DNA of 50,948 nt from Bacteroidota bacterium (GTDB taxonomy: Bacteria > Bacteroidota > Bacteroidia > Chitinophagales > Chitinophagaceae): the NCBI GenBank assembly GCA_018268035.1, contig JAFDXI010000058.1, positions 1-50,948 of the forward strand, given 5' to 3'. Within the stretch, counting starts at the first letter, position 1. Every line of letters starts with the position of its first letter. Shown here piece by piece: positions 10,206 to 22,336 of the stretch. A program made the translations under genes and the position numbers. Under the pieces are notes generated by a model that saw nothing but the letters and a program-made list of their open reading frames with translations, had not been told where the DNA came from and did no database searches.

Positions 10206-11099
10206 TTAAAATTTTAATTCTGATGGTAAATATTTAGCTACCAAATCTTCATAATAAGTCCTCAATATTTTCCAGTCAGGTGGTGTTGGATTTTTTGAAT
10301 ACAAATCATACGGATTAAACAATCTTACCCATTTCAACATATTGCGGTCATGGTCATCCATTAAATAATCATAAGCGCCTTCTCTATGCCAGGGATAAAA
10401 TGAATGATACCGCAACATGTATAACCCTTCTTCAGGCAAACAATCTTTGGCAAGATGATAAACGTATTCATCATGGCCCCAACTCATCGTTACATTCCGC
10501 AAACCACAATTGGGTTGATACACACCATATTTTGAATTGTATCTTTCATCACTGTAATCCGGGTTGTTTTTAAAAAATTCAGGATACACAATTTTATCTG
10601 AATAAGCACAACCTACCGGAAATGTATCTCCTACCACTGCCCATTGTGGCTCGCCAAACAAACAAAGCACTTTACCCATATCATGCAATAAACCCACACA
10701 CACCATCCAGTCAGGATGGCCATCTTTCCTGATTGCTTCTGCAGTCTGCAATAAATGCTGAAACTGGTCAAGATCTGTATCAGGATCTGAATCATCCACT
10801 AATTGGTTTAGAAAATTAAATGCATCCCACACCGGCATTTTCTTCTTATCAAATTTTAAATACTCAGCTCTTTTTTCCTGTACAAAATCATAAGTTTGAT
10901 ATGTATGGTTTAAGCGATAAAACTCCCGTACAGTATCCCTTCCTGGTTCATCATAATTCCTATATTCATCTGTTGATTTTGATGTGGCAATTTCTTCCGG
11001 ATCCGGATACCTTTTTAATAAATCATCTTCCCATTCATCCAAACTATTTAAAGGATCTTTTTCTGTGGCAGTAAACTGATTATTTGTTGTTGCTCCCAT
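10206..11099 (-). CDS. Inositol oxygenase (MIOX)
   Basis: MIOX cleaves myo-inositol with O2 to D-glucuronate using a mixed-valent di-iron centre. The 297-residue protein aligns by eye to the animal enzyme along its length. Iron ligands can be placed: His115 (DQFQHLLQTAE), His139-Asp140 (GLLHDMGK), His209 (SWGHDEYVYH), His232 region (RYHSFYPWHREGAYDYL) and Asp265 (FNPYDLYSK). The HD-domain core and the substrate Lys in LHDMGK are retained. It has no signal peptide, so it should act in the cytoplasm. The divergent sodium/solute symporter at 11446 could supply the inositol; that link is inference from position. Bacterial MIOX is uncommon compared with the Iol dehydrogenase pathway. Confidence 0.92.
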   Translation of the reverse strand: MGATTNNQFTATEKDPLNSLDEWEDDLLKRYPDPEEIATSKSTDEYRNYDEPGRDTVREFYRLNHTYQTYDFVQEKRAEYLKFDKKKMPVWDAFNFLNQLVDDSDPDTDLDQFQHLLQTAEAIRKDGHPDWMVCVGLLHDMGKVLCLFGEPQWAVVGDTFPVGCAYSDKIVYPEFFKNNPDYSDERYNSKYGVYQPNCGLRNVTMSWGHDEYVYHLAKDCLPEEGLYMLRYHSFYPWHREGAYDYLMDDHDRNMLKWVRLFNPYDLYSKNPTPPDWKILRTYYEDLVAKYLPSELKF

Positions 11100-17672: not shown

Positions 17673-18782
17673 TTAAAACAAACTCCCCTGCGTTCCCGGC
17701 CTTTTAAATTTTGAACGGTCAAGGCTCCAGTCTTCTGCATTCATGCCATATAATTTTCCATATTTACGGTATTGCTGTGCCACCAGTTGAGCTATGGGGC
17801 CTTCACCCCGCATACGCACACCCCACCGTGTATCATTCACCTGCCCATCATGGCTTTTCTCAATCAGGTGCCATACTTTATCTGCACGGTCAGCAAAATT
17901 TTTGTAGAGCCAGTCGCGAAATAAAAATTTAATAGCGCCATTCAACCGGATAAAAGTATAAGCAGTAAAAGTCGCTCCGTTATCCCTTGCCGCTTTCATG
18001 ATACGTTGCATCTCATGTTCATTCAATCCCGGTATCATCGGCCCCATCATGATGCCCATGCGCACACCAGCAGTACTCAACTCATTAATCACCTTTAATT
18101 TTTGTTTGGCTGTTGTTGTACGCGGTTCCATCACCCTTCTCAAATCTTCATTAAAAGATGTTATAGATACCATCGCCGATACAATATTTTTCTTCCCCAT
18201 TACCGACAACACATCTTTATCTTTTAATATCCATGAATTTTTTGTGAGGATGCCGACAGGCTGGTTAAACTCGTTGCACACTTCAAGCAACCCTCGTGTC
18301 AAACGGTATTTCTGTTCTGCAGGCTGATAACAATCAGTGTTGCCACTCAGCATGATGGGTGTTGCATCCCAACGCGGATGCATTAAAAATTTGCGCAACA
18401 ACTGTGGTGCATTTTTTTTCACGATAATCTTTTGTTCAAAATCCATCCCTGCACTGTAGCCCCAGTATTCATGCACATTGCGGGCATAACAATAAATGCA
18501 GGCATGCTCACAACCTGCATAAGGATTCATACTATAACTCATACCTACATCGGGGCTCTCCACTTTGTTGACAATTGTTTTTACTTCCTGTTCCAGGTAA
18601 ATAGTAGGCAAAGATTTTTCTTCCCAGTCATCAATCGCTTCTACATTTTCTTTTGAAACTTCATTGATTAAAAACCTGTTTTTAGTATTGAACTGTGCAC
18701 CGCGGCCATAATGATATTGCGTTGTTTCTTCCTGTTGCTTTGGCCGTGGTTGTGCATTGGGGTTGCCTGCTATGTTTTTCAT
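17673..18782 (-). CDS. SplB-like radical SAM protein (PA0069 family)
   Basis: The 369-residue protein is a radical SAM enzyme of the PA0069/Rv2578c type, related to spore photoproduct lyase. Cys91, Cys95 and Cys98 in GCEHACIYCYARNVHEYWG form the CX3CX2C 4Fe-4S site. Other family blocks are MSYSMNPYAG, MLSGNTDCYQPAEQKYRLTR, GILTKNSWILKD and MGPMIPGLNEHEMQRI. The N-terminal GRGAQFNTKNRF is also characteristic. The family is implicated in DNA or nucleobase chemistry, but its substrate is not established. It is 151 bases downstream of the UmuD-like gene on the same strand, in line with a damage-response island. Confidence 0.9.
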   Translation of the reverse strand: MKNIAGNPNAQPRPKQQEETTQYHYGRGAQFNTKNRFLINEVSKENVEAIDDWEEKSLPTIYLEQEVKTIVNKVESPDVGMSYSMNPYAGCEHACIYCYARNVHEYWGYSAGMDFEQKIIVKKNAPQLLRKFLMHPRWDATPIMLSGNTDCYQPAEQKYRLTRGLLEVCNEFNQPVGILTKNSWILKDKDVLSVMGKKNIVSAMVSITSFNEDLRRVMEPRTTTAKQKLKVINELSTAGVRMGIMMGPMIPGLNEHEMQRIMKAARDNGATFTAYTFIRLNGAIKFLFRDWLYKNFADRADKVWHLIEKSHDGQVNDTRWGVRMRGEGPIAQLVAQQYRKYGKLYGMNAEDWSLDRSKFKRPGTQGSLF

Positions 18783-18933
18783 AAAAAATTTTTTCTTTCA
18801 TCTTTATTTATTACTTCATTTTATGGAAGCTGTTGATGTGCTTTTATTAAAATATATAACGCTATAGAGTAACCTGCCTTCCGCAAAACATACATACTTT
18901 ATTGAAATACTATAACCCGTTGCTCAAAATTTT

Positions 18934-19446
18934 TTAATAAAACCTTTGTGCTTTACCATATTTATCTTTTTGATTAAGCACGCTTTTATTTTTTACAGCA
19001 AAGAGGCTGCGCTCCATCACATGGATTACGCAGGTCACCACACCCCACACATGGCTGCGGTCGTCAAACGTTGGGAGTATTATATTACTCATACGCTGGT
19101 TGGCACAAAGCAACTCCACATTATTTTGACTACGTTGTATGCGGCGCACCAACAACTCGCCATCAAGGATGGCTACAATCACTTTACCGCTGGCAGGCCG
19201 CAGGCTGCGATCAACAATTAAAATGTCACCGCTGAAGATGCCGTCATCTATCATCGCATCGCCATTCATGCGAAAGAAAAATGTGGCGGGCTTGTTTAAA
19301 ATCAGTTGCTCATTGAGGTCAATGCCGCGTTCCATATAATCATCGGCGGCTGCGCCAAAACCGTTGGCATTAGCGGTCCTTACATCATGCTGTGAAAAAT
19401 TTTTGCTGCCGGTATAGGCAGCATTATAACCCGTTTCCCTTTCCAT
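18934..19446 (-). CDS. UmuD-like S24 protein lacking the catalytic Ser and Lys
   Basis: The 170-residue protein is homologous to UmuD: residues 29-56 (GFGAAADDYMERGIDLNEQL...) follow UmuD around its cleavage site and core (GFPSPAADYVEQRIDLNQLL), FRMNGDAMIDDGIFSGDILIVD follows the SGDSMIDGGISDGD block, and ILDGELLVRRIQ follows VDGEFTVKKLQ. In E. coli UmuD, Ser60 and Lys97 form the self-cleavage dyad. Here these positions are Ala64 (codon GCG) and Arg101. Both substitutions should abolish autoproteolysis. A 30-residue N-terminal arm and a C-terminal tail of about 20 residues (SLFAVKNKSVLNQ...) are unlike UmuD. There is no DNA-binding domain, so it is not LexA. It probably forms the dimer partner of UmuC in a fixed state. 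It is divergent from the 2H and umuC genes. Confidence 0.88.
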   Translation of the reverse strand: MERETGYNAAYTGSKNFSQHDVRTANANGFGAAADDYMERGIDLNEQLILNKPATFFFRMNGDAMIDDGIFSGDILIVDRSLRPASGKVIVAILDGELLVRRIQRSQNNVELLCANQRMSNIILPTFDDRSHVWGVVTCVIHVMERSLFAVKNKSVLNQKDKYGKAQRFY

Positions 19447-19463
19447 ATACTAATTTTTTATTG

Positions 19464-19492
19464 ACTAAATATTTTAGTAAAATTAAACTAAA
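19464..19492. promoter_or_regulatory. Operator-like inverted repeats between UmuD-like and 2H genes
   Basis: ACTAAATATTTTAGT (19464-19478) is a perfect palindrome around TAT with half-site ACTAAA, and a third ACTAAA lies at 19487-19492, so TTTAGT/ACTAAA also forms an inverted repeat. It is 18 bases from the UmuD-like start and 60 bases from the 2H gene start. A shared repressor controlling both directions is a reasonable guess. I cannot place a consensus -7 box here. Confidence 0.5.
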
Positions 19493-19551
19493 TAATTTAT
19501 CTTAGCGGCTGGTTAGTAAAAAATATTTCCTCACAGTTTACAACTTTGTAT

Positions 19552-20160
19552 ATGCAGGATGGGTTAGCATTTTTACCCGGTTTCAGCGGGTGGCAGGTAG
19601 CGGGCAGCACGTATGAATATTTGCTGGTAGCATATCCCCCCGGTGAAATATTTGAGCGGGTGCAGGAAGAAAAGAAAAAATTTTCTTCCTGCCACACAAC
19701 AGGCAGAATAGAAACAACTCAACCGCACATTGCCATCGCCGGTTTCAGGGCGAGCGAAGCAATGGAAGCGCGGCTTATTCAATGGATGCAAAAAATAACC
19801 GGCAGCCAGGAAAGGTTGCCTGTAATGTTGAATAATTACAGCGGCTCACCTTCTGCCAACACAGTGTTTATACGGGTGCAGTATCCCGGGCCATTCCGGC
19901 AATTTGCCGCTTCATTACAACCTGTCAATGAGTATATAAAAGACAACGGTTTTCCGCCGTTGCATATCATGAATTGCCCACACATCAACATTGCTAAAAG
20001 CCTGCAGCAACAGGTGTATGAAAAAGCTATCATGGAATACTCACGTAAAACATTCAACGCAGATTTTATGGTGGATGAACTGGTGTTGCTGAAACAGCAA
20101 AATCAGTATGATACTTGCAGGCAGGTAAGCCGGTTTAAGTTGGGTGCTTCGCTCAATTAA
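19552..20160 (+). CDS. 2H phosphoesterase / 2'-5' RNA ligase-like protein, copy 1
   Basis: The 202-residue protein has the two-lobed layout of the 2H superfamily. The motifs are His59 in TQPHIAIAGF and His144 in NCPHINIAKS. Canonical motifs are HxT or HxS, so both His are kept but the following Thr/Ser are Ala and Asn. EYLLVAYPP at the start and a C-terminal LVLLKQQNQY strand match the fold. It is followed by a paralogue with the opposite loss. Start at ATG 19552, preceded by an in-frame TTG at 19546. First gene of a likely three-gene unit ending in umuC. Activity as a cyclic phosphodiesterase or ligase is doubtful; a binding role is possible. Confidence 0.75.
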   Translation: MQDGLAFLPGFSGWQVAGSTYEYLLVAYPPGEIFERVQEEKKKFSSCHTTGRIETTQPHIAIAGFRASEAMEARLIQWMQKITGSQERLPVMLNNYSGSPSANTVFIRVQYPGPFRQFAASLQPVNEYIKDNGFPPLHIMNCPHINIAKSLQQQVYEKAIMEYSRKTFNADFMVDELVLLKQQNQYDTCRQVSRFKLGASLN

Positions 20161-20301
20161 ATAGTATTATATAGTTGCATCTGCCATTCAATAATCATTG
20201 ATTTTTCATGATAGCAACTGCACAGATGATGATGAAAAATTTTATTATCAATCTTCCGCGCAGTGATGTGCAACAACCTATTTTTTAAAACAAGACATTA
20301 A

Positions 20302-20976
20302 ATGAAACATCCCCTCATCATACAGGAATATTTAAACGAAGCCGAAACGCATGTGATGCCTGCCGAATATTTGTTGGTATTGCAACCACATGAAACTTTG
20401 TGTAATGATATCAAATCAATCAAAGAAAAATTTGCAGCCGCTTATCATCACGAAGGTGCAAAAAAAGGTTTGCCTAATATTACCCTTGCCCGTTTCAAAC
20501 AATTTCAATCAACAGAAATGTATATCAGGCAAAGCCTGCGCAACAATGCAAGAATATTAGCGCCATTTAAAATTGAACTAAAAGATTTCGGCAGCCTTCC
20601 ATCACACACCATCTTTATCAATGTTGTAAGCAAAGTGGCAGTGATGCATGCTGTAAAAATATTGAGGCAACAGGCACAAAAATTTATGAAACTTGATAAA
20701 GATAATAAGCCGCATTTTATAACAGAGCCCCGCATCACTATTGCCAGGAAATTGCAGGCCTGGCAATATGAAAAAGGCCGGCTGGAATACGGGCAAGCAA
20801 GTTTTCATGGCCGGTTTATTGCAGATGGTGCAGTGCTGCTCAAGCGAAAACAAAACGAATATTATAAACCTGTTGAGAAATTTTTATTTGAAGGAAAGAA
20901 AGCAACTATACGACAAACAAACCTGTTTACTACTACACCATTTCCTGAAAGAGACGATACATCTTTGATGAAATAA
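20302..20976 (+). CDS. 2H phosphoesterase-like protein, copy 2, catalytic His lost
   Basis: The 224-residue protein is a paralogue of the gene at 19552: EYLLVLQPHETL matches EYLLVAYPPGEI, GLPNITLARF matches TQPHIAIAGF, TEPRITIARK matches NCPHINIAKS and AVLLKRKQNEYY matches LVLLKQQNQYDT. The motifs fall at the same positions, 59 and 144, but here Asn and Arg replace both His while the Thr two residues later is kept (NIT, RIT). It should therefore be inactive as a 2H phosphoesterase. A C-terminal extension of about 30 residues (TIRQTNLFTTTPFPERDD) follows the fold and contains QTNLF, which resembles a beta-clamp-binding motif. It ends seven bases before umuC. Confidence 0.75.
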   Translation: MKHPLIIQEYLNEAETHVMPAEYLLVLQPHETLCNDIKSIKEKFAAAYHHEGAKKGLPNITLARFKQFQSTEMYIRQSLRNNARILAPFKIELKDFGSLPSHTIFINVVSKVAVMHAVKILRQQAQKFMKLDKDNKPHFITEPRITIARKLQAWQYEKGRLEYGQASFHGRFIADGAVLLKRKQNEYYKPVEKFLFEGKKATIRQTNLFTTTPFPERDDTSLMK

Positions 20977-20983
20977 AAATAAT

Positions 20984-22336
20984 ATGCTGCCGCAAAAAAT
21001 ATTTACACAAAACCATCATATCAAAAGCCTTCCTTTTGACGGGCAGAAAAATTTTTATGCGTTGGTTGACTGCAACAGTTTTTATTGTTCGGCAGAAAGG
21101 GTTTTCCGGCCTGAACTGGCTGAAAAACCGGTGGTGGTGTTGAGTAATAATGATGGCTGCATCGTAAGCCGCAGTGATGAAGTAAAAGCATTGGGCATTG
21201 ATATGGCAGTACCATATTTCAAGGCAAAGGAAGTGATTGAAAAATATGATGTGGTCACCTTTTCATCCAACTATAACCTTTATGGCGATATGAGTTGGCG
21301 GGTGATGGAAACACTGCGCATGCTGATGGGTGATCAAAACGTGGAAGTGTATTCAGTGGATGAATCATTTGTCAATATGCAGGCAGTGCCATTTGAAAAA
21401 CTGGAGTTTGCCGCCATCCAGATCAGGGAAACAGTGGAACAGTGGACGGGCATCAAGGTATCAGTGGGAATAGCGCCAACAAAAACACTCAGCAAGGTGG
21501 CCAATCATATTGCCAAACGCGATAAGAAAAAAACAAACTGTGTTACCATTTTGAAAACAGCAGAAGATATACTGGATGCATTACTCAATACACCTGTGGC
21601 GGATATCTGGGGTGTGGGCCGGCAATATGCGGAAAAGCTGAAGGGCTTTGGCATCCTTGATGCTTATCAATTGTCGCAAATGCCAGAAGCGTGGGCAAGG
21701 AAAAACCTGGGCGGTGTGGTGGGCCTGCGGCTGATAAAAGAATTAAAAGGCGAACCGTTTATTGTAATGAAGGAAGCATTGACAGAAAAGAAAATGATTG
21801 CCACCACCCGCATGTTTGGAGCTGCTGTGCGTGATAAACAAAGCATCAAAGAGGCCGTTGCTACCTACACCTCAAGAGCTGCTGAGAAGCTGCGCCGCCA
21901 GTATGGTGCAGCTTCGGTGATCAGCGTTTTTGTTTTGCCAAAAATGCCGCAGGCCGGTGATGGCCATTTCTCTTATGGCCCATATATGAGCCACTGCATC
22001 CGGTTGCCGCATGCCACTTCAGCCACCGGTGAACTGATAAAAGCCGCGATGAATATCGTTGACCGCATTTATGAAGAAGGCAGGTCATATAAGAAAGCAG
22101 GCGTGGTGTTGAGCAGCATCGTACAGGACACTTCGGTGCAGGGGAATTTTTTTGTTCCTCATAAAAATAATAACAACCGCATCCTGATGAGTATGATGGA
22201 TAATATCAACTTCAGCATGCGGGATGACATTTTAAAGTTTGCAGCCAGCGGCACCCACCGCAACTGGAAGATGCGGCAGGAGTTTCGCAGCCCGCGTTAT
22301 ACTTCAAGATGGGATGAGTTGTGCGAGGTGAAATAA
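20984..22336 (+). CDS. umuC: Y-family DNA polymerase V catalytic subunit UmuC
   Basis: The 450-residue protein is a translesion polymerase of the UmuC branch. The palm motifs are FYALVDCNSFYCSAERVF (catalytic Asp) and EVYSVDESFVNM (catalytic Asp-Glu); VSVGIAPTKTLSKVANHIAK and the HhH region VADIWGVGRQYAEKL follow, and the little finger runs from about residue 255 to 370. The C-terminal SPRYTSRWDELCEV is the DUF4113 tail seen in UmuC proteins. An internal basic 18-residue N-terminal extension precedes the conserved start. It is normally activated by cleaved UmuD and RecA; here the neighbouring UmuD-like protein cannot cleave itself. It begins seven bases after the second 2H gene. Confidence 0.95.
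   Translation: MLPQKIFTQNHHIKSLPFDGQKNFYALVDCNSFYCSAERVFRPELAEKPVVVLSNNDGCIVSRSDEVKALGIDMAVPYFKAKEVIEKYDVVTFSSNYNLYGDMSWRVMETLRMLMGDQNVEVYSVDESFVNMQAVPFEKLEFAAIQIRETVEQWTGIKVSVGIAPTKTLSKVANHIAKRDKKKTNCVTILKTAEDILDALLNTPVADIWGVGRQYAEKLKGFGILDAYQLSQMPEAWARKNLGGVVGLRLIKELKGEPFIVMKEALTEKKMIATTRMFGAAVRDKQSIKEAVATYTSRAAEKLRRQYGAASVISVFVLPKMPQAGDGHFSYGPYMSHCIRLPHATSATGELIKAAMNIVDRIYEEGRSYKKAGVVLSSIVQDTSVQGNFFVPHKNNNNRILMSMMDNINFSMRDDILKFAASGTHRNWKMRQEFRSPRYTSRWDELCEVK

Follow-up and report, generated by a model that had tools for sequence, protein, structure and literature searches.

Self-cleavage of UmuD is the textbook switch of DNA polymerase V (Pol V), and the question raised by the locus described here is what becomes of that polymerase when its UmuD appears unable to cut itself. 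The locus lies at positions 17,673 to 22,336 of contig JAFDXI010000058.1 (assembly GCA_018268035.1), a 50,948-nucleotide stretch from a member of the Chitinophagaceae that was analysed whole and is called the window below. An original prediction had placed five genes here, a SplB-like radical S-adenosylmethionine (SAM) protein and a UmuD-like protein on the minus strand and a pair of 2H-like proteins (H2a and H2b) and UmuC on the plus strand, and all five were confirmed in position and strand. We read the locus, with a probability of roughly 60% and from sequence, as a Chitinophagaceae cassette for translesion synthesis and repair that is under SOS control, centred on the sliding clamp and equipped with an uncleavable UmuD. 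By predicted gene content it is two modules sharing a divergent promoter, one consisting of the dead UmuD and UmuC, the other of one or two 2H-like proteins and the SplB-like radical SAM protein.

The UmuD-like S24 protein (18934..19446, minus strand; 123.2 bits against NF007621, cut-off 110) has lost each of the determinants of self-cleavage that we compared with E. coli. Both members of the Ser-Lys dyad are replaced (Ser60 by Ala, Lys97 by Arg), and the cleavage residue Cys24 has become Asn, leaving Asn-Gly where a Cys/Ala-Gly site would be expected; the N-terminal arm is retained. Searching 195 genomes of the family with this protein gave matches in 121, which fell into two score bands. The upper band (expectation value, E, of ~6e-32 or better) provided 97 fetched loci from 96 further genomes, and these together with the window make up the 98 proteins of group A. 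Of the 43 weaker matches in the lower band, 23 were fetched as group B, including by score one locus (L128) that is yet A-like, with a dead dyad and an adjoining 2H gene. The dead-UmuD type, as defined by the upper band, is thus present in 97 of the 195 genomes.

Across group A the Lys97 position is Arg in all 97 readable rows, and the Ser60 position is Ala in 90 proteins, Thr in 2 and Ser in 6, so that Ser is lost in 92 of 98. The residue before the former scissile bond is T in 85, N in 9, S in 3 and P in 1, never A or C, and the glycine that follows is found in all 98. The claim that this UmuD is protease-dead is therefore borne out by sequence well beyond the window, and we regard the group A protein as almost certainly uncleavable. 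Group B keeps both Ser and Lys in 13 of 23 members; in six others (L129, L138, L139, L141, L144 and L146), all without the Lys, Met stands at the cleavage position, giving a ready-made UmuD'-like protein. A group A profile run against 396 genomes of the class reached E ≤ 1e-63 in 8 of the 11 genomes there that belong to the window's family, and in no genome of any other family. Outside the family the best match was 6.6e-39, and matches there mostly began near profile position 25, the longest from position 6. Among 20 loci fetched from the class set, the 8 from within the family carry Ala and Arg at the dyad positions and the 12 others carry Ser and Lys with an Ala-Gly site.

We also evaluated the arm that cleavage would remove. 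Its length before the old site is exactly 27 residues in 73 of the 98 group A proteins, and Y11, G13, K15 and Q19 are near-invariant. The mean frequency of the commonest residue is 0.95 for residues 24-46, 0.63 for 11-23, 0.52 for 1-10 and 0.65 for 61-142, making the stretch across the old cleavage site the best conserved part of the protein; comparison with E. coli indicates that part of it is conserved in ordinary UmuD too. In the monomer model (mean predicted local distance difference test score, pLDDT, 70.8) most of residues 1-44 score below 50, and the packing position of this low-confidence arm is not readable from the model. Conservation combined with predicted disorder suggests that the stretch is a binding peptide. 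We lean, with some reserve, towards uncut UmuD being a working subunit of Pol V. The same peptide-like character of residues 24-46 (0.95, against 0.65 for 61-142) would suit a brake, in which dead UmuD mimics uncut UmuD2C, the checkpoint form of E. coli, and restrains UmuC until some other signal arrives. It would be odd, however, for a permanent inhibitor to be co-induced with its own polymerase from one operator, and the window's genome holds no second UmuD match at E ≤ 0.001 that might provide relief. We consider the brake doubtful and retain uncut UmuD as the putative working subunit.

UmuC (20984..22336, plus strand) has Pfam IMS, IMS_C and DUF4113 above cut-off, and its Y-family domains and catalytic D, D and E are intact. 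Its score of 368.6 bits against NF002955 falls under the cut-off of 431, although this is still the best of the NCBIfam models. At the position of E. coli QLNLF, which we take to be the clamp motif of that protein, the window's UmuC has QGNFF (22139..22153), which fits only a looser form of the motif. Among the 90 group A UmuC proteins that cover the site, 85 fit Q..[LIM][FL] and 89 fit Q..[LIMF][FL].

Two further proteins of the locus end in a motif of the same kind. In H2b (20302..20976, plus strand) the candidate clamp-binding motif is QTNLF (residues 205-209; 20914..20928), which the original prediction had likened to a clamp-binding peptide. Of 78 H2b proteins, 74 have Q..[LIM][FL] within their 30 C-terminal residues, against 4.9 in shuffled sequences, or 74 of 76 when two distant 2H paralogues (L039_10402 and L044_7821) are left out, as they are from all counts of 76 below; two of the H2b sequences (L089 and L120) are truncated by contig ends. 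The likeness thus extends to a near-invariant feature of the orthologues. The tail motif is also present in 79 of 80 named relatives (80 of 271 kept, from partly overlapping genomes), and in only 2 of 19 standalone 2H proteins of other families. A conserved QxxLF-type motif in a tail that appears exposed is what the sequence of a sliding-clamp client would look like, and H2b probably binds the clamp. A KQVNVF-like C-terminal segment of H2a was considered as a clamp motif and rejected: alignment with H2b makes it the last strand of the fold, and the strict form is barely enriched (7 of 50 against 3.7 by shuffling).

The third protein is the PA0069-family (SplB-like) radical SAM protein (17673..18782, minus strand; 369 amino acids), which scores 450.5 bits against NF033668 (cut-off 360), matches Pfam Radical_SAM and has CxxxCxxC by eye. 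Its C-terminal QGSLF (17676..17690, minus strand) is a candidate clamp-binding motif kept across copies: of 77 copies from the family, 75 have Q..[LIM][FL] within their final 20 residues, against 2.7 in shuffles, usually as QG[RKS]LF or similar, both misses being short, broken-looking frames. Named copies have it in 66 of 72 cases, those truncated by contig ends being counted too. Across the phylum, PA0069-family copies (L360-L389) carry a QLxLF-type motif in the last 14 residues in 24 of 30 cases, against 1.5 in shuffles, and in a fourth genome of the family that has the polymerase fusions described below, a PA0069-like radical SAM protein ending in QQLNLF (L271:2713-3795) adjoins a Y-family polymerase gene.

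Both 2H-like proteins score above the cut-off of 27 for Pfam PF13563 (2_5_RNA_ligase2), H2a (19546..20160, plus strand, with the ATG at 19552 the likelier start) at 33.4 bits and H2b at 31.0 bits. The AlphaFold2 model of H2b (mean pLDDT 89.3) is confident over approximately residues 20-197, with a low-confidence tail that forms a short helix at 205-208. Foldseek matched this model best to YjcG (2d4g, E 2.8e-9), next to plant CPDase and LigT, and lower to AKAP18, so that profiles for both proteins and structure for H2b point to the 2H fold. Neither protein has the two HxT/S motifs of a 2H phosphoesterase. The original prediction of two degraded 2H proteins stands, except that motif alignment shows they differ in kind: H2a keeps both His and has lost both Thr (HxA..HxN), whereas H2b has lost both catalytic His (NxT..RxT). 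The shared decay seen in the window is patchy among relatives, where 38 of 76 H2b proteins have both His and 15 have neither; decay is on this account tolerated rather than a defining feature, and we rejected it as such.

The tail of H2b is held more tightly than its active site. Across 78 sequences Q205 is conserved in 96% and L208 in 95%, against 65% and 67% for the catalytic His, and a quick tree needs 18 changes of the two-His state and 2 of the tail. A different histidine, His102 (20605-20607; GS.PSHTI), lies off both catalytic motifs and is kept in 76 of 78, above the catalytic His; it is possibly a binding-site residue. We put the chances that H2b works without catalysis at about even. 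An active phosphoesterase at the clamp, trimming blocked or cyclic-phosphate ends (e.g. at ribonucleotides inserted by the polymerase), with the activity lost in the window and some relatives, would account for the full HxT/S..HxT/S in 32 of 76 H2b proteins, so catalysis may matter in many species. It would also suit the copies at 13 H2b loci described below that lack umuD, where 10 rows keep both His and one of the remaining three is unreadable, and the nearest folds, YjcG and then CPDase and LigT. The proteins with neither His, the repeated changes of the two-His state under a steady tail and the N and R that replace both His in the window's copy argue the other way, and we judge this reading of H2b as an active enzyme unlikely.

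We next evaluated how the genes travel together. Conservation of the neighbourhood in the Chitinophagaceae, on which the predicted module depended, holds: in the fetched stretches of the 98 group A loci, umuC is found in 91, a radical SAM gene in 77 and a 2H gene in 83, though some loci scored as lacking 2H may carry copies too diverged for the profiles used. In 81 of these 83, the 2H gene and umuD are immediate neighbours that point away from each other. Group B, by comparison, has umuC in 20 of 23 loci and a 2H gene in 1. The commonest layouts are umuC-umuD facing 2Ha-2Hb-radical SAM (29 loci) and umuC-umuD facing 2Hb-radical SAM (26), and an arrangement in which umuC and the radical SAM gene trade places, as they do in the window, occurs at 7 loci, its own among them. 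In the 80 loci whose flanks reach 4 kb or more at each end (18 short-flank loci being excluded), 2H and radical SAM occur together in 67, 2H alone in 3, radical SAM alone in 1 and neither in 9 (Fisher test p = 9e-9, uncorrected for relatedness of the genomes). The closest companion of 2H is therefore the radical SAM gene, present in 67 of 70 loci with 2H and 1 of 10 without.

This association also occurs apart from umuD. Thirteen H2b loci, six Niabella and two Pinibacter records among them, have no umuD in the stretch, and CTAA-N5-TTAG lies within 600 bases before H2b in 11 of the 11 tested, twice in 7. A UmuC search of seven of the genomes concerned (G013, G021 and G707-G711) found it at another place in one; the matches in the other six were weak (E 3e-15 to 1e-9) and are interpreted as DinB-like. 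At four loci, three from Niabella (L177, L210 and L223) and one from Pinibacter soli (L229), 2Hb and radical SAM sit behind SOS boxes with weak UmuC matches (E ~1e-9). Since the umuD-less loci tested carry these boxes and six of the seven genomes searched lack a clear UmuC, the 2H and radical SAM genes look like an SOS operon of their own, to which the polymerase module was added or from which it was lost. The cooperative module originally predicted is thus upheld in part: its neighbourhood is conserved, the role of the 2H pair and the dead UmuD as partners or sensors of the polymerase stays putative, and 2H tracks radical SAM most closely, also where there is no clear UmuC.

A direct connection of 2H domains to polymerases does exist in another family of the class, where 3 of 11 genomes encode a Y-family polymerase with a C-terminal 2H domain in one protein (L244:268-2076, L245:1483-3258 and L268:838-2778; 602, 591 and 646 amino acids). 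Pfam IMS and 2_5_RNA_ligase2 are above cut-off in the two that were scanned, and the third fusion genome has 7% contamination. In L244 the next gene after the fusion is of the DNA polymerase III alpha type, and we infer that the fused polymerase corresponds to PolY2 and this alpha subunit to DnaE2. A shared ancestry of the 2H domain in the fusions with H2a and H2b was considered, and a quick tree spoke neither for nor against it (support 0). The existence of these fusions makes a polymerase link of the 2H proteins plausible.

The locus may instead reflect ordinary SOS clustering, its genes being neighbours through one shared operator with no joint complex. The occurrence of UmuDC without 2H, of 2H and radical SAM without UmuDC, and of a box of its own before the 2H gene at every umuD-less locus tested is what such clustering would produce. 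It would not by itself account for a similar clamp-type motif in three different proteins of the locus, for a co-occurrence of 2H and radical SAM far above chance even allowing that relatedness is uncorrected, or for the fusion of 2H to a Y-family polymerase elsewhere. We think clustering alone improbable.

The shared control region that had been predicted between the divergent units carries the candidate operator ACTAAATATTTTAGTAAAATTAAACTAAA (19464..19492), with CTAA-N5-TTAG at 19465-19477. This is the SOS operator of Bacteroidetes under a non-canonical LexA, tested in other species, and the same study lists the Chitinophagaceae as one of the families whose regulons under it are large (PMC8565304). 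Close to the start of umuD, the box is present in 90 of 98 loci of group A (0.9 in shuffles) and 15 of 23 of group B (0.26 in shuffles). The window's genome also has it immediately upstream of recA, and again ahead of an XRE-S24 repressor gene adjoining ssb, so that a promoter box is accompanied by a regulator carrying the same box, as in a Bacteroidetes SOS regulon. That repressor gene (L152:722-1510) has two CTAA-N5-TTAG boxes and a dyad that is intact by eye; its product is likely to be the SOS regulator. In relatives, with 28 readable loci for each gene and the window's own genome included, the box precedes recA in 11 (0.28 in shuffles) and XRE-S24 genes, paralogues included, in 17 (0.24). 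The longer 29-base form of the operator occurs once in the genome, at the locus, with 0 control matches. The cassette is very probably under SOS control. A large regulon by pattern count was considered and dropped, the strict pattern giving 4 matches genome-wide against 15 in the reversed control, one of the 4 (L151) being chance-like. A second CTAA-N5-TTAG in the window (10799-10811) lies within a long minus-strand frame (10206-11099) and is probably a chance match. The intact-looking dyad of the XRE-S24 protein, together with the glycine kept after the old site in every group A UmuD, might suggest that UmuD is processed in trans by another protease, which is highly improbable given that none of the 98 proteins has Ala or Cys just before the bond, unlike the S24 site described in PMC8565304.

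Several observations weigh against reading the locus as a cassette with a dead UmuD. The Ser60 position remains Ser in the six group A proteins already noted, and, on average, arm residues 1-23 show no higher conservation than the core. QxxLF is a short motif whose clamp meaning in this phylum comes by analogy with E. coli UmuC, and in UmuC it is not specific to the cassette, being present in 17 (strict) or 18 (looser) of 20 group B proteins. UmuD and UmuC occur without both 2H and radical SAM at 11 loci, and 2H and radical SAM occur in genomes without a clear UmuC, so the two modules are separable. Two of the three fusions have no DnaE match in the fetched stretch. With the genome-wide count of the strict pattern unenriched, the operator call rests on place and conservation, not number, and no box before recA was found outside the window's family among the readable loci of relatives. 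The full catalytic motif in many H2b proteins belongs on the same side.

Compared with E. coli Pol V (UmuD'2C), the window has the same intact UmuC catalytic residues, a clamp-like motif at the equivalent place, the DUF4113 tail, a UmuD-family partner and SOS control. It differs in that its UmuD keeps the arm without the determinants of self-cleavage, and in that 2H and radical SAM genes use the same promoter. Relatives of UmuD that need no self-cleavage are known in the pre-processed, HumD-type UmuD', whose genes begin at the UmuD' start. Group A would resemble these in having no need of self-cleavage but keeps the arm, and the start of the six group B genes noted above coincides with that of UmuD', as in HumD-type genes. 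ImuB offers a parallel to H2b, as a catalytically decayed protein with a clamp-binding role (predicted for H2b) in an error-prone repair cassette; ImuB, however, is a dead Y-family polymerase, whereas H2b has the 2H fold and lies beside an active polymerase. H2b shares its predicted fold with YjcG, LigT, CPDase and AKAP18, and is set apart by its conserved C-terminal QxxLF tail, patchy loss of catalytic His and SOS context.

The study of the Bacteroidetes SOS regulon describes the same CTAA-N5-TTAG, an XRE-S24 regulator and umuDC and splB as members (PMC8565304). Words with the stems ligase, phosphoesterase and clamp have 0 matches in its main text, and a dead UmuD goes unmentioned in its Results and one Discussion section. 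With the operator and non-canonical LexA already published there, SOS control is not new; what is new is the content of the cassette. The Bacteroidetes PolY2-DnaE2 system (PMC6511836) likewise has a Y-family polymerase before a DnaE-type gene, the polymerase in L244 carrying in addition a fused 2H domain. The main text of that study has no match for LigT, RNA ligase or phosphoesterase, and the window's cassette differs from the system in having UmuC and no DnaE gene. Among the matches listed from open-licence PubMed Central (PMC) literature, none joined 2H proteins to translesion polymerases or the clamp, none joined SplB-like radical SAM proteins to the clamp and none reported a family-wide dead UmuD.

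These data allow us to propose a mechanism for the cassette. On DNA damage, the non-canonical LexA repressor would be cleaved and all five proteins made. UmuD would join UmuC uncut, so that transcription would suffice to activate Pol V and no conversion of UmuD to UmuD' would be needed. Three of the five, UmuC, H2b and the radical SAM protein, would dock on the sliding clamp and form a tool belt at damaged sites. H2b would serve chiefly to bind, from its tether on the clamp, nucleic-acid ends, a nucleotide or the enzymes beside it; its phosphoesterase chemistry would be dispensable and, in the window's genome, lost.

If so, the proteolytic switch of Pol V may have been abolished in this family, and a catalytically dispensable 2H protein may represent a new class of translesion accessory subunit, one that, on one clamp, connects a lesion-reversing SplB-like enzyme with an error-prone polymerase; we put this forward tentatively. 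A widespread, apparently uncleavable UmuD that keeps its arm is a natural test of what cleavage is for, and the clamp-like motifs give a testable role in DNA repair to 2H proteins and to the PA0069 family of radical SAM proteins.

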